Origin: Telopea speciosissima | Lineage: Eukaryota; Streptophyta; Magnoliopsida; Proteales; Proteaceae | Direction of reading: 5' to 3' | Assembly: GCF_018873765.1 (NCBI RefSeq) | Contig: NC_057922.1 | Span: 12,227,563-12,291,562, forward strand | DNA length: 64,000 nucleotides | Shown: piece after piece, positions 30,801 to 37,770 of the stretch | Layout: each line of letters begins with the position of its first letter | Numbering within the stretch: position 1 is the stretch's first letter | Position numbers and translations under genes: made by a program | The notes under the pieces: model-generated | The model's input: only the letters and a program-made list of their open reading frames with translations | What the model was told of the DNA's origin: nothing | Database searches by the model: none

Positions 30801-33800
30801 TGTGATAATTTTCAGGAGATATATATGAACATGCTGTAGTTCTTAGTGTGAAGACAGAAGACCAAGATGCTTTTGAGAGGGACTTCTTTCAGCTTAAGCC
30901 TTACTATACAGATACTGGGTAACTTTCTAGTGACTTGAGGAAACAGCAATGAAAGTTCATCATATACAGTTTTAGTTTTTATTGCAAACTTAATTTGCAA
31001 ATGGATGTTTGAAAAGTTTATTATAATCAAATACTCTTAAGTCTAAAATTTGAAAGTTTTCCTTATACGTGTCTTTGTCTTTTGCGGGAACAGTGGCCAC
31101 CTCCAGCCATCGCCTCAGGAGTATCCAATCTTGGGCCTTAACCTTCTTAGGCTCCTTGTGCAGAATAGAATAGCAGAATTTCATACAGAACTAGAACTGC
31201 TTTCACCTGTTGCTCTGGAAAATCCTTGTATTAAACATGCTGTGGAATTGGAACAATCCTTCATGGAAGGGGCTTACAACCGTGTATTGAGTGCCAGGCA
31301 GACTGTTCCACATGAGACTTATGTTTATTTCATGGATCTCCTTGCGAAGACAGTCAGGTAATATGTTGAAATATGATGGTGGCTATCAGAATTTGAGGAA
31401 ATGTAAGCAGAAACCAATAACATTTTTACATTGCAATTGGAGTTTTGGTATGATATCCCAGTCTATTTTATTTGTTAAAACTCGAGGTGCAAAAATTCAG
31501 ACAAATCCAGGTCATCGTTATACAATACGTCATTCCATTGGCTTTTTATTTGTCATATTCAAATGTTTCAAAAAAAAGAGATACCATTTCAGCTTGTCCA
31601 AATTATCAAATCCAGACCATGACCTGGTTTCTAATTCAGAGGAGCTATCCCTGCCTCCTTGTTTGTTCTAGGATTTTGGGCAACATATTCTTATCTGAAC
31701 CCAGTTTTCATGGGGTTGGACATGATCGGTGGGACAGGTCAGTCAAAATTATGCCACCCCTAATCAAGGCTTGTGGTCTGAGTGTGTACAGAGTGCAAGC
31801 ATGATGTTGGATATGGTCTATTGACCCATCAATGCAGGATCCCCTTTAACTTGTGGCAACCCTACTAGTAAAATGTTATTTCTAACCCTACCATGTGCAC
31901 TATTTCTAGGTACCTTGATCTTCTCATAGAAGTTCGAAAGCTGGATTTGGAGCTTTTATTGAATGTCTTTTTTTGTGTCTTTAAACCTTTTTTTGTCACC
32001 TGCAGAGATGAAATAGCTGGGTGTAGTGAGAAGGCGTATGATTATCTCTCAATTAGTGATGCCAAGCAAATGTTGATGTTCTCATCTGAGCACGAGTTAC
32101 TTGAATATATCAAAGAGGTAGATCTAGTAGCATTTTGATTCACGTATTGTGTTCCTTGTACTTTCTTTGCTTCTGTTATGTTGATCATGCAAATTAAAAC
32201 TGAAGTTTACTTGAGGTGCCAACTATGGTTTTAGAGATCAGCCAAATCATCCAATTTACATCAGGAATTCAGGATAGGATCAATCCAGTCCATTATACCT
32301 AGTGGAGCAGCCGATCCAGTAGTACTATTAGGCTTTGTTCACTGGTTGTATGATTGATGAGTTGGTATTGGTTGGGGGTTCAACCTCCAATAGCAACCCA
32401 TAAAATCCTTGGACTTACTAGAAGTGATGCTGTTCGCTGAGTAATCGGTATCTTTTTCCTTTGTTAAACATGCACTGATGGGTTCGGTGTCATGACTTGA
32501 ATAATGTAGTTTGTCATAGATCTTGTCAGGTGCAAAGATAGATACTACTAGTGCAGAAATGGCTTGAGTTCAAGTTGGTATCCTTCCCATCTGAAGCCTA
32601 TATGGGAATAATTTATTCCTTTCAGGTCATTGATTGAACTGATCATGGGTCATAGTAATTCGGGTTTGTAAGACTCAAATCCAACGACCAATGTATTATA
32701 TATATATCCAATGTCAGCCTTTGCGGAACCTTACTCTCTTTCTTAATCAGCTCCCACATGTTAATGCAAAAATCAGAACCCCTAAATCTGATTTGAATTA
32801 AGGTGATGGGCTCTGTTAGTTTTATGAAAATACTAAGAGGGCGGAAGAGTTGCCAATATAGGGATAACATAAGTTGATAGAACTGCTACAAGGAAATTAA
32901 AATCTCAAAGAAAAAGATCAGATATAATAGCAGACAGTGTGATAAACAATGACCAAAATTGAAGGTAATGAACAAGATCTCCGAGAGCAGATGGGAATTT
33001 GTAACAGAAAGATAAACTGCTAGTTTTAGACAATAAATAGTATAGCAGAATTTCTGTAAAATAGATTGATGTAAACTAAAACAGAACTGAATTGCAGAAA
33101 ATGATTCTTAATCTGATATGTTAATAAACAGATGCTGAAACTCACAGAGAACTGGGATTGGACATGTTAGAAGAATAGAAGATAAGGCAAGGATTCCAGC
33201 CTAGGCTCTAGAGTGTCAATAGATTTGAGGAAATTCATCCTCATGTGGAACCACTGAATACACACAGAGCATGTTGATAAACTAGCACTATATTCATAAA
33301 AATGTATGCCTCCAAGGACAAAGGTACACCTATATATATCAATCCAATACAGCTCAAAAGTAGAAATTTCAACCCTAGATTCAACATCTAAGTCAAATAG
33401 GACTCTAAAACAGAAACTAAAACGAATGAGAAACTAGACTCTAAAATTCGTGTTCCAGACTGCTACCCATAATATAGGCTAAGGGTGTCAATCAGTTCGG
33501 TTTTGGTTACTCGGTTCGGTTCAAGATAAAAAACGCAGTGACCAAAAACTGAACTGAGAATAGGAATGCATTTTTCAAAACCAAAACGAACAGATTCGGT
33601 TCAGTTTGGCTTCGGTTTTTATTTGATCCTTATTCGGTTTAGGTCTTATTTTAGGTGTTTGGGATAACTTTTCACATCTTCACGAACAAAAAAAACCCTT
33701 ATCTGTTAGGGTCATAATCCATCAAACTTTTTCCAAACATAAAAAGACAGAATTTTTCATCCATATTAAAAGAATATAATTTTACTTGGTTCCTTATTCG

Positions 33801-36397
33801 GTTAAAAAAAAGGTAATTCGGTTCGGTTCAACGGTTTAAGTCATGAAACTGAAACTGAACTGAACCGAGAAAGACTCTAGCCTTTGAAATCAAAATTGAA
33901 CCGATTTCCTTTCGGTTTTAAATGGCCAGTGTTGTTTTTGGTTTCGGTTTTAAATTGACACCCTTAATATTATAGGCTCATTAAAGAAGCCTACTGCATT
34001 GTGAACCCATCAGACTAGAAGCCCAATATATGTGTAATCTATCCCAAATACTTATTTTGACTGAAATGAACTCTTCTCAATGATTTTAGTACATGTAATT
34101 ATTGATTGACTAGATTCATTCCTTATTGAAAGTAGTAGACCTAAATTTGGTTATGATTCTTTCATTTTAGAGTGTACGAGTCAATGTCTTGTCAGATCTT
34201 GGTCGACTATCTTATTTAAATTGAATTTCTAGATTCATTTTGCCCCTTCCTATCAGCCCTTTATAGTATTTCCCGACATTCATAATTGATGTCACTTTCG
34301 TCAGCAGTTGTATTTTTAGTGGTCCATTTTTCTATGCTTTTATCGTTTAGAACTTAAAATTTGAGTAAAATTACCAACAAGTGCATGATGATGAAAAGGT
34401 TTGTATATTGGGGTTTCTCTTCATTTGTTCTTTAAAAGATAAGGTTTTGTCCCTTCATCTTTTGTTCTTTTTCTTGGCGGAACAGGTCCGCTAATTTTTT
34501 TGGCAGACAAGTTTGGTATGAGTGGTTGTTCATAGGCAATCTTGGTACTTGCACTCTTATCATACTGTGGAGTATGGATCCTCCTATGAGGTTTGGCCTT
34601 TTGGCCAGCGTTGTTGTTGTACTTTTCCTTGCATAGTAGTTATTCTTAGGCAATAAAATTATATATATATATAGGGAAATTTACGAAACACCCCCTGAAA
34701 ATGGGTCGAAACTCAGATCACCCCCTATATTAGAGCCCAATACTCAGATTACACCCTACCGTTAGTGATCCACCGTTAAGTGATGAAGTCAGCTACTTAA
34801 ATATTTTTTAAAACCCTAGACTACCCTTGTGCAACGTAAAGTTACAATATTACCCTTCTAGAGAAAACCCCCAAATTCGAATGTTTTCCTCTTCGTTCTT
34901 CACTCTCTTCCTAAATGACCTGCAACTCCAAAACTGAAGTTCGCCGGAGTGAAGAAAGATAACGAATTTGAAACATGGCTTGCCGAGATTAAAGTCAAAA
35001 GTGATTTTTAATCTGATTCATCGCAGGCACCTACGGTTGGATGCTAATAAACACCGTCGCGACAACATTCTTCCAGATTCCCTAACTGAGCTCTGCAACC
35101 TACAGTTTCTCAAAGCTAAGGGCTTCCCCTGCAACCCACCACTACCGACTTGCAACCCTCCACTACCGACCTGCAACCCTAAACTGATTTTGTTTACCCT
35201 CTCAATTACCCTCTCAAAACCCATGAATGTCAATGAACAGAAAAACTGAAATGGATTTCAAATCCTTTGTAAGTTCTTTTTTATGGATTTCATAAAAAAA
35301 AAATTCTTTTTTTCTGGAAATGCAAAATGCAGAGATATAAAAGGATATAATGAGGAGGATTGCAGAGATTAAAGGGTAACTGCCGATTCGATTTCTCTCC
35401 ATTGTCCCATTTCTATTACCAACTCCAACTAGAGAAAACCAAGAAAAGCCAAAGCCCTGCAAAAACTCCCATTTATTCTTTCTTCTCCCTGATCGCACAA
35501 ACCAAATTTTAGAAGCCCTTAAAATGATGAAGACAATCACATGAGAAATCAGAAAACCCATAACCGTTTCCAAAACCAACAGAACAAACTCCCAACCCAA
35601 AAATTGCAGAAATCGAAATCGGCAGAACCAAAACCCTAGAACCTTCTCGTTTTGGGTTTTCCATTTTAAATCTCAGGAATTAAATTTTGTGAATTTTTCT
35701 TTAAATTTCCATCTCTCATGGCAGTGCCTTCTTTTGATTTTCTTCAGTAAATCAAATCTTAGTTTTAATAACCACAGAGCCCTCTGTTATTAACTTTTTC
35801 AGCATAAAGTTCCACACTGTTCTTCGGGAACTTAAATCGTTTCTGAACAACTGAAGCAAGTTCCTTGGTTCTTATGCTCTTCTCACCTAGAACGTTCTGG
35901 GTACGAGTAGCCCTAATGATGATTTTTGTGTGCATAGGCGTAGCTCTGACATCAACACCAGAGTAGCCATCCTCGGCAAGCTCTCTGGTGAGAACCTCGT
36001 TGAGCTCCGCGAAGAAAACTCCATCGGCAACGAACTTACACTTTTTGCTCATCTGAGTCACCATTCTAGGAGGAATTGTGCGATTTTCGTTTCCAAATGA
36101 AGCAACAAAAGGGCGCAGGATTTCTTTTTAGCTTCTCTTCGCGGGGTTATTGAAACCCTAAGTAAAGAGAAGCAGCGGCGGCGGTGGTGGCGGTGCTGCC
36201 AGCGGAGTTGCAGGGAAGGGGTGGGGTATCTTAGGTTGAAGATGAAGGAAGGGTAGTATTGTAAATTAAATTCTAATGTTTTAGTACAAGGCTAAAATAG
36301 TCCTTTTACAACAATAATTAACAGCAGACTAACACCGTTACTGTAGAGGGGGTGATCTGAGTTACAACCCATTTTCAGGGGGTGTTTCGTAAATTTC

Positions 36398-36432
<35 letters not shown>

Positions 36433-37770
36433 GGTATTTGCTGTTAGGGCTAGTAGTGCAGTTACCCATAAAAATCTCTCATCTTTTTTTGAATTGAAAA
36501 AATTGCCGTTTATTATTATTTTTGTTTAATATCCAGTCTTACATTTGTCCGACCCCATTTAGTTGGAATAAGGCTGAGTTGTTGTATCCACAGGCTTACA
36601 TTATTTGATTCTCTAATATTTGTTATTCTTAAATAATAGATGGAGCTAGGAGGATTTGACCATTTGGAAGCCATAGGTTGAATAGACTCCTGTCACTCCT
36701 CTTCGCCCATGAGTTATGCACCTGCAAAGATACAACCATTGGTCCATTATTACTTATTTCACCATCTTGAATCAATCCGCTCAGGAAGGAGGACATGAAT
36801 CTTTCAATTGCTTTCTCCTAAAATTCAATTACCTTACATGTAGCGTTGCTCTGACCATGATGATTATTGCCTGAAATGGCTTATCTTGGAGTACCGTTCA
36901 GCTTCCAATGTTTCAAACGCCTGGGTGTGTCAGGAATTTTGACGCCATTAATAATTATCTAAAAAACAAAAGAAAAAATAGGAATCCCATATGCCGTCTT
37001 GACATTTTTCTTCTGGGCCCTCCAATCATTAAATGAAGAGGGGGGGCAAGATGTTTGGCATTTTGGATGTCCCAAATGCCATTGCGGACTGTCCCAACGT
37101 CCCATGAAACTAATGCGGCCAGGGGATAGCCCTTGAGAGAAAATAAGGTAACCAACTTGGCATCCTTAAAAGTGCAAAATTTTGCACCATCTTATTCTGC
37201 TTGAAATTTATTTATTTTGTCTCATTGTCACCACAGATTTACGTTAGGTTGGTGTTGCATTTTGTTGTTATGCTGACACTTTTACATCAAAGTATGTCTT
37301 CACTTCTGCCATTATCTTATCCATTAGCATCACACATTATCTCCATGTTTGTTTCATGGAGAGTATAAGAATGGAACGTTTTTCTCTGCCTCTTTATTGG
37401 TTGGTTGGGTGACAGAAACAGCTTGATCACAACCAAGCTGACCAAAAACAATGGCTTGGATTCTTGAAGCCTCCAACATGCATTACTTTTGTTGGCATAT
37501 CTTCATTACAATGTTCTCCAAAAAAAAAAAAAAGCCTTGCATTAAAATGGGACTCCTCCAAAGATATGCAGAGTCTGATGTTTGATGAGGTTGACTATCT
37601 GATCAAATCATATTATCTGTTGTGTGCAGGAGCATCCTGAGTGGGAGATAAAGAATGGGTTTGTGTTTTTCCAGAAGGCAAAGGATTCTGCCCCTTGCAA
37701 GGAAATACCATCGCTGCAGCTTATCAATCAAACACTCAGTTATGCCAGAGAACTGGAGCGGATAGTATGA
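18809..37770 (+). CDS. RPN12: 26S proteasome lid subunit RPN12
   Basis: Six exons are 18809-18913, 23371-23449, 30816-30918, 31094-31357, 32006-32117 and 37630-37770. The phases match and all introns are GT-AG. They encode 267 aa, the length of Arabidopsis RPN12a. The product starts [20 protein letters not shown] and includes [40 protein letters not shown], the PCI/CSN8-like region [20 protein letters not shown], and ends [14 protein letters not shown]12 is a non-ATPase lid subunit of the 19S regulatory particle; it helps lid-base assembly and ubiquitin-protein degradation in cytosol and nucleus. I chose the ATG at 18809 because the family starts MDPKL; an in-frame ATG at 18782 would add nine residues. 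Introns 1, 2 and 5 are 4.5, 7.4 and 5.5 kb and are full of transposons, yet every exon is intact. The gene is therefore probably functional. Confidence 0.96.
20106..20832 (+). mobile_element. Solo LTR (fossil) with perfect 5-bp duplication
   Basis: A 727-bp segment starts TGATGCAG and ends CTACATTA, an inverted terminal pair. ATAAT lies directly on both sides (20101-20105 and 20833-20837). It has no internal coding region, so it fits a solo LTR left by recombination. It lies in RPN12 intron 1. Confidence 0.7.
21504..22126 (+). mobile_element. LTR-like segment (fossil)
   Basis: It starts TGATGCAG and may end near CTATATTA, similar to the LTR at 20106-20832 in style and size. No matching 5-bp duplication was found, so the right end is uncertain. 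It is non-coding and lies in RPN12 intron 1. Confidence 0.35.
22177..22286. mobile_element. hAT-like MITE, family A (CATAGTTGTCA)
   Basis: A 110-bp element begins CATAGTTGTCAAGG and ends TGGCAACTATG. The flanks CTCTACAG and TTCTACAG are an 8-bp duplication with one mismatch. The interior repeats GCCTAGGCG and its complement. It is the shortest of three family members in the window and lies in RPN12 intron 1. Confidence 0.7.
24294..25000 (-). mobile_element. L1 LINE 3' end with RNase H remnant
   Basis: On the minus strand a decayed frame reads MAELLALRMGLELC-like residues (AELLALRMGLE type, the RNase H core of plant L1 elements). A 3' UTR follows, ending CATGCACCC plus a poly-A tail (T-run at 24294-24307). 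It is 5'-truncated and broken in several frames. It lies in RPN12 intron 2. The residue reading is approximate. Confidence 0.5.
25086..26404 (+). mobile_element. Solo LTR (fossil) with perfect 5-bp duplication
   Basis: The 1319-bp segment starts TGATGTAG and ends CTACATTA. GTTGT flanks it on both sides (25081-25085 and 26405-26409). No primer-binding site or internal coding region follows, so it fits a solo LTR. It lies in RPN12 intron 2. Its ends match the LTR at 58566-59938, which does have a primer-binding site behind it. Confidence 0.7.
26410..27239. other. RPN12 intron 2, unassigned part
   Basis: The stretch near 26640-26820 repeats TATAGACATGT(G/C)-type motifs several times and holds a short direct repeat region. 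No exon or delimited transposon was recognised. Confidence 0.35.
27240..28660 (-). other. LTR-like repeat DNA with poly-G runs
   Basis: Two related halves share phrases such as GAATCCACAGAA/GAATCCACATG and a poly-G run followed by ATGC(T/A)G(C/T)(A/G)GACCTTACA or GGCCTTTACATC. The style suggests tandem or nested LTR remnants in reverse orientation. The ends could not be fixed. It lies in RPN12 intron 2. Confidence 0.3.
28671..29288. mobile_element. hAT-like non-autonomous element, family A
   Basis: The 618-bp element starts CATAGTTGTCACGGCG and ends CATGACAACTATG. The flanks are a perfect 8-bp duplication, GATACAAC (28663-28670 and 29289-29296). Both ends are dense in CCATGGCG and CGATAT palindromes, while the middle is plain AT-rich DNA. 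It encodes nothing. It lies in RPN12 intron 2, next to the reversed RTE tail. Confidence 0.75.
29297..29565 (-). mobile_element. RTE-type LINE, 3' UTR only
   Basis: Read on the minus strand, it repeats the 3' end of the element at 13981-14531: CCTATTGGAGGGCAAGGATC, then a block with GATCCATGTAGCCGACCCC and the TTGTTGT-side terminus. It is a 5'-truncated insertion carrying no protein domain. Confidence 0.65.
29566..30815. other. RPN12 intron 2, 3' part
   Basis: Mostly unassigned. A stretch near 30480-30610 (TGGACTCAAACCTGGG, then CCTGAGACCCTAC, TGCGGGATGCACTGG) resembles a decayed SINE of the Au type but lacks clean ends. The final bases carry the branch and acceptor region of exon 3. Confidence 0.35.
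32118..33480. other. RPN12 intron 5, 5' part with LTR-like DNA
   Basis: From about 32880 the sequence has the style of a plant LTR in reverse orientation, continuing after the MITE at 33481-33965 to about 34070. A TAATGTAG near 32502 could be a reversed LTR end. No coding region is seen. Confidence 0.3.
33481..33965. mobile_element. AAGGGTGTCAAT-ended non-autonomous element
   Basis: The 485-bp element has inverted ends AAGGGTGTCAAT and ATTGACACCCTT. Both end regions repeat TTCGGTTCGGTT-like motifs. The flanks AATATAGGCT and AATATTATAGGCT look like one target duplication with a small length difference. Similar ends occur at 47067-47741 and, less clearly, at 44596-45516. Mutator type is possible but unproven. 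Confidence 0.6.
34674..36399. mobile_element. Pack-MULE carrying an RPS3 fragment
   Basis: The 1726-bp element has 53-bp terminal inverted repeats (34674-34726 and 36347-36399) that differ at about two positions and start GGGAAATTTACGAAACACCC. The flanks are ATATATATA on both sides, a 9-bp duplication as expected for Mutator-like elements, but they lie in a TA microsatellite so the evidence is weak. No transposase is present. The interior holds host DNA: the start of a ribosomal protein S3 gene on the minus strand (35765-36064 plus its leader up to about 36200 and part of its intron below 35773). Near 34968-35110 on the plus strand is a short leucine-rich-repeat-like stretch, [12 protein letters not shown], that may be a second capture. 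It lies in RPN12 intron 5. The near-identical end repeats suggest a young insertion. Confidence 0.85.
35765..36064 (-). pseudogene. RPS3: Captured 5' fragment of ribosomal protein S3
   Basis: The minus strand reads [20 protein letters not shown], then [52 protein letters not shown] and VNNRGLC. These are residues 1 to about 97 of plant 40S RPS3, covering the N-terminal arm and the start of the KH domain. The similarity stops at CTCTGTG|GTTATT, where the intact gene would splice from exon 1 to exon 2. So genomic DNA with its intron was captured, not an mRNA copy. Several normally conserved residues differ (for example [10 protein letters not shown] where plants have GEKGRRIREL). About 60% of the protein is absent. 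It cannot make a working ribosomal protein but could be transcribed antisense to RPN12. Confidence 0.9.
36400..36429. repeat. (TA)n microsatellite
   Basis: A pure AT/TA run directly follows the right end of the Pack-MULE. A shorter run sits before its left end, so the element landed in a TA tract. Confidence 0.9.
36546..36587 (+). mobile_element. Bare RTE LINE tail, about 42 bp
   Basis: TGTCCGACCCCATTTAGTTG followed by the AAGGCTGAGTTGTTGTAT end of plant RTE elements stands alone. CCAGTCTTACATT and CCACAGGCTTACATT flank it and look like a slightly changed target duplication. It is an extremely truncated LINE insertion in RPN12 intron 5. Confidence 0.6.

Follow-up and report, generated by a model that had tools for sequence, protein, structure and literature searches.

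The element and its host gene

The window, that is, the whole 64,000-nucleotide stretch of Telopea speciosissima DNA that we analysed, contains on its plus strand a gene that we take to be RPN12 from its peptide motifs. Its last-but-one exon lies at 32006..32117 and its last exon, with the stop codon, at 37630..37770. Pfam PF10075 matches the exon at 31047-31358 (E 6e-16), and no Pfam match was obtained for two short exons, at 30809-30919 and at the end of the gene. The last intron holds a non-autonomous Mutator-like element (Pack-MULE) of 1726 bp at 34674..36399, described here on the minus strand, which is the sense of the RPS3 piece it carries; the piece is antisense to RPN12. This arrangement had been proposed in a preliminary description of the locus, and the Mutator-like structure, the strand of the RPS3 piece and the location in an RPN12 intron are all confirmed. 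The position in RPN12 is most likely one insertion among many. The same intron contains a MITE-like stretch at 33473-33978, read by eye, with the ends AAGGGTGTCAAT / ATTGACACCCTT and with TATAGGCT on both flanks, which presumably resembles an 8-bp hAT-type target duplication.

The terminal inverted repeats at 34674..34729 and 36344..36399 pair over 56 nt with 3 mismatches, slightly longer than the 53 bp with about two differences given before. Both sides are flanked by the 9-bp sequence ATATATATA, at 34665..34673 on the left and 36400..36408 on the right. This target site duplication, also noted previously, falls in a (TA)n run and by itself is weak proof, but it is backed by the duplications of other copies. 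A genome search (822,943,500 bases) found full-length RPS3-bearing copies of 92-97% identity on four other contigs, at C3:18.28 Mb, C1:78.55 Mb, C2:79.80 Mb, and C9:16.73 Mb, and their target duplications match at 9, 8, 9, and 9 of 9 positions. All five RPS3-coding copies with paired ends have a 9-bp duplication matching at 8 or 9 positions. The loci examined include 22 distinct elements with paired ends; 15 of them match at 8 or 9 of 9 positions, and the match is poor (2 to 7 of 9) in the other seven. The end sequence itself, allowing up to three mismatches over 33 nt, occurs at 245 + 243 places in the genome and at none for the reversed control, and the paired ends of the 22 elements bear out the expectation that such pairs occur elsewhere.

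The long inverted ends, the target duplications of about 9 bp in other copies, and the family of the same ends identify the element as a MULE by structure. MULE transposase domains are plentiful among the best 150 of 828 candidates in the genome, and none was linked to these ends by the domain listing alone. The left arm (36162..36399, minus strand) is common to a large family with different cargoes, as judged from the best 40 of 2428 candidates in a genome search. A bacterial promoter model, which is uninformative for a plant, gave no match in this arm. As the definition of a Pack-MULE demands, the element has a host gene fragment between its ends and the parent gene, RPS3 at C7:64.07 Mb, lies elsewhere. 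Such fragments are usually, though not by formal definition, taken from genomic DNA with introns. Here both RPS3 introns are absent at exact joints, and we therefore class the element as a variant Pack-MULE.

The element had been called young-looking. An alignment of five copies has 1651 columns without gaps, and at 25 of these (1.5%) the window copy has a substitution of its own, which suggests that it is fairly recent and in that respect agrees with the earlier view, but that it is not a fresh insertion.

The captured RPS3 piece

The intact gene was found by the genome search. Of the three RPS3 genes, the one closest to the element is at C7:64.07 Mb, on the same contig as the window, and its alignment with the element fixes the captured limits at 35773..36161 (minus strand) instead of 35350-36230. 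The piece has 389 nt: 97 nt of leader before the ATG, exons 1 and 2, and the first 114 nt of exon 3. Compared with the gene, 6 of the 97 leader positions and 16 of the 292 coding positions are different. The gene aligns in three blocks of 92, 97, and 93% identity: the leader and exon 1 (36035..36161, with the ATG at 36064), exon 2 (35887..36034), and the first 114 nt of exon 3 (35773..35886), all on the minus strand. In the gene, two introns lie between these blocks, one of 89 nt and one of 106 nt, both with GT-AG borders. The 89-nt intron is missing exactly at the exon 1/exon 2 joint (36034..36035), and the 106-nt intron exactly at the exon 2/exon 3 joint (35886..35887). Once both introns are cut out at these borders, the gene and the element give a gap-free alignment. 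The captured piece is thus not a single genomic exon 1, as first described, but three exons joined without introns, and the missing introns likewise speak against the earlier reading as a capture of genomic DNA.

The introns interrupt all three RPS3 genes at the same residues. A protein search of the whole genome with the element's frame gave 13 matches (15 candidates, all scored): seven element copies with contiguous exons, and the three RPS3 genes, each split in two by an intron. The first joint is intron-free in all seven RPS3-coding copies. The second is clean in six, and the seventh, at C10:61.53 Mb, is also without the intron and has an indel beside the joint.

The piece ends inside parental exon 3 and adjoins other element sequence. 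Since the parental exon runs on past this limit, the exon had not stopped exactly at a splice donor as supposed, and the apparent donor at the 3′ end of the piece is a coincidence of the joint. At the other end, the homology begins in the leader, with no significant match between the element and the C7:64.07 Mb gene upstream of these 97 nt. The start of the piece may or may not coincide with the 5′ end of the RPS3 message. The preliminary description had envisaged a captured RPS3 promoter strong enough to drive an antisense RPN12 transcript. The piece is indeed antisense to RPN12, and its leader keeps the TTAGGGTTT tract. The left arm might contain a promoter, yet it would not be that of RPS3. 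As the homology starts within the leader, a strong antisense promoter has no basis in the captured piece; we consider this proposal very improbable and have rejected the capture of the RPS3 promoter, there being no homology to the gene above the leader.

Behind the RPS3 piece, at 35639..35711 (minus strand), lies a second captured scrap of ~73 nt. It spans what looks like the start codon of a different gene, at C2:16.66 Mb, which was read by eye.

Copies and descent

The seven coding copies share changes relative to the gene, including Gly63Ser and Thr70Ala, and probably go back to one capture, as the common residues suggest. Two of them, at C7:30.30 Mb (hereafter C7b) and C10:61.53 Mb (hereafter C10), make up a second branch. 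At one place they lack 27 and 18 nt, respectively; the two deletions overlap and perhaps derive from one event.

Shorter versions of the piece are also present. Only the leader and start codon (104-108 nt) are kept at seven more places, six of which have a deletion joint in common. In the seventh, a 389-bp element, a short shared sequence, GGTGA, marks the junction of the start codon with the end repeat. Only the first 41 nt of the leader are found at fourteen further places, a class that may descend from the RPS3-bearing element or may have preceded it. The 35 DNA matches are thereby fully accounted for, as seven coding copies, seven leader and start-codon copies, fourteen 41-nt copies, and seven gene pieces. 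Descent of the RPS3-bearing copies from one capture, with parts of the piece lost in later ones, is well supported.

Nine of the fourteen 41-nt loci were read (L060-L068), and in seven of these nine a second copy of the leader start stands directly before it, like a 24-bp tandem duplication. A further locus (C86:94300-95500) is an element or remnant in which the final few bases are all that is present of the RPS3 piece, together with the sequence that follows it.

The open frame

The captured piece opens a frame of 99 codons at 35765..36064 (minus strand), which contains the N-terminal KH domain of RPS3 (Pfam KH_2, E 1.9e-11) followed by Gly-Tyr and TAA. The frame could be kept by selection as a new peptide. 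In favor of this, it is open from the ATG to the same Gly-Tyr-stop in all seven coding copies, with 99 codons in five of them, and with 90 and 74 codons in the pair that has in-frame deletions. The protein match in C10 shows two TAA, but when C10 is read from the ATG, 74 codons precede the first stop, which is the one that ends the frame. In a neutral simulation the chance of no stop was 0.046, or 0.057 when the deleted copies were judged on the codons present. We note that the simulation and the substitution counts assume a fixed tree, ((five copies as star),(C7b,C10)); they apply simple parsimony and a mutation spectrum drawn from these data themselves. Synonymous changes are, however, not in excess (21 of 77 inferred changes against 28.75% expected, one-sided p = 0.65), and dN/dS relative to the parent gene ranges from 0.61 to 1.32 (NG86; five copies, the two deleted copies left out), whereas over the 97 residues the C7 gene encodes the same protein as its C3 paralogue. 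The substitutions thus show no purifying selection, and the openness of the frame is marginally unlikely under neutrality. We therefore consider a selected peptide improbable and the frame most likely passenger DNA, with some doubt. G-to-A and C-to-T together make up 47 of the 77 changes, a bias as in methylated, silent DNA, which the copies may have been.

Origin of the spliced capture

The element has the structure of a MULE, and its RPS3 piece is without the two introns at exact exon joints. A spliced sequence implies an RNA stage of the template. Our main reading, to which we give a probability of about 85%, is that the 5′ part of an RPS3 message, already spliced, entered a non-autonomous Mutator-like transposon, which was then copied to at least seven places. 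Against this stand the single capture event, which concerns a single gene, the shortness of the introns, and the lack of a surviving donor cDNA or retrocopy that would show the route. The uptake may have begun with a break or gap in an ancestral element; during its repair, the machinery would have switched template to an RPS3 cDNA, either reverse-transcribed mRNA or a short-lived retrocopy. About 390 nt would have been copied from this cDNA before a switch back to the element, and MULE transposase acting in trans may have spread the RPS3-bearing product.

An RNA stage would not be needed if genomic RPS3 had been captured with its introns and both had been deleted afterwards. Internal deletions are common in this family, but those observed miss the exon borders, and none of the seven coding copies retains a remnant of an intron. 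Two independent deletions exactly at the GT-AG borders, both of them older than the earliest divergence among the copies, would be very unlikely, and we have rejected intron loss after capture as an explanation of extremely low probability. The piece is also not a simple LINE-made pseudogene inserted into a MULE, because the hallmarks of such a pseudogene, the 3′ end of the message and a poly(A) tail, are absent from it.

It is harder to choose between a cDNA and an RPS3 processed pseudogene whose genomic DNA was captured by the MULE and which has since been lost from the genome, an alternative whose chances we place just short of even. Retrocopying is known to produce genes without introns, this route makes RNA-templated repair unnecessary, and a retrogene, ARF6, within a MER20 transposon is named as one possible reading in the accessible part of an animal study (PMC8277862). 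Against it, no intron-less RPS3 was found outside these elements among the 13 protein and 35 DNA matches in the whole genome, and RPS3 exon 5 is present in the three RPS3 genes only (3 matches, 3 candidates, whole genome), although the donor may simply be lost. The absence of both is compatible with a cDNA and with a lost retrocopy alike. Uptake of the spliced message, the reading preferred here, raises the further idea that MULEs are able to copy RNA, or newly made cDNA, of highly expressed genes directly into gaps, and that part of plant transduplication is RNA-derived. We offer this tentatively, with the odds leaning against it.

Exon 5 was used as the RPS3 probe because a search with PF00189 gave many other rps3-like places. 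These further matches, on contigs C12, C72, C119, and others, are perhaps organelle-type, from organelle contigs or nuclear organelle DNA.

Relation to known captures

Like other Pack-MULEs in plants, the element has long inverted ends and 9-bp target duplications; it contains several gene scraps, exists in many copies, and has captured the 5′ end of a gene. It differs from captures in grapevine Mutator, PIF, and hAT elements, which include introns according to the available part of PMC2528002, whereas the RPS3 piece is intron-free across two introns. Turmoil-1 of C. elegans is likewise an inverted-repeat DNA transposon with a captured coding domain, which reportedly is not under selection (PMC2572040); its captured rsp-2 piece keeps its intron, while the RPS3 piece lacks both.

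The nearest precedent that we found is a hAT element of Pseudocercospora fijiensis with spliced histone H3, for which the authors infer capture of a transcript or retrocopy (PMC6710886). As in our case, a DNA transposon carries a housekeeping gene with exon-exon joints and without introns, and was then multiplied. That case concerns a fungus and another superfamily, and its spliced form was shown on sequences with RIP mutations removed in silico, whereas the element here is a plant MULE with directly readable joints. No report of a spliced capture by a plant MULE was found in the literature searched, in which most papers were judged by their listing; the founding Pack-MULE papers lay outside it, and an earlier report may exist there. 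The available parts of PMC1947982, PMC3726574, and PMC3538342 contain nothing on spliced captures by MULEs, and the words intron, mRNA, cDNA, retro, and ribosom are absent from PMC8903248.

How MULEs take up unlinked genes is an unsettled question. A 2026 review of plant gene capture, as far as its text was available, states that an undiscovered mechanism may exist, and the words intron and mRNA are absent from its main text (PMC13317346). A capture with clean exon joints bears on this question, since its template must once have existed as RNA. It also provides a simple test applicable to any plant genome, namely a search for exon-exon joints inside MULEs. If RNA-derived captures do occur, they could go unseen, since pipelines may drop intron-less captures as retroduplicates; the accessible text of PMC8277862 describes this for its own animal Pack-TIR screen.

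Other cargoes of the family

The left arm is followed by different sequence in a further five loci (L073-L077), with at least four cargoes as judged by eye, and the left-arm family is thus a gene-capturing family. In L061, no multi-exon parent of the cargo was made out among 82 matches (best 40 of 325 candidates). The only other cargo with an identified parent is part of a PADRE-domain gene, which lies antisense to the RPS3 leader in L022, L023, L024, L026, and L027 (e.g., L023:1674-2465), five of the six elements with the common RPS3-deletion joint. The parent stretch of the L023 cargo is an uninterrupted frame of 200 codons, so this cargo is no test of whether intron loss is a habit of the family. 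The PADRE-domain parent family is arranged in tandem at C5:7.02-7.05 Mb.
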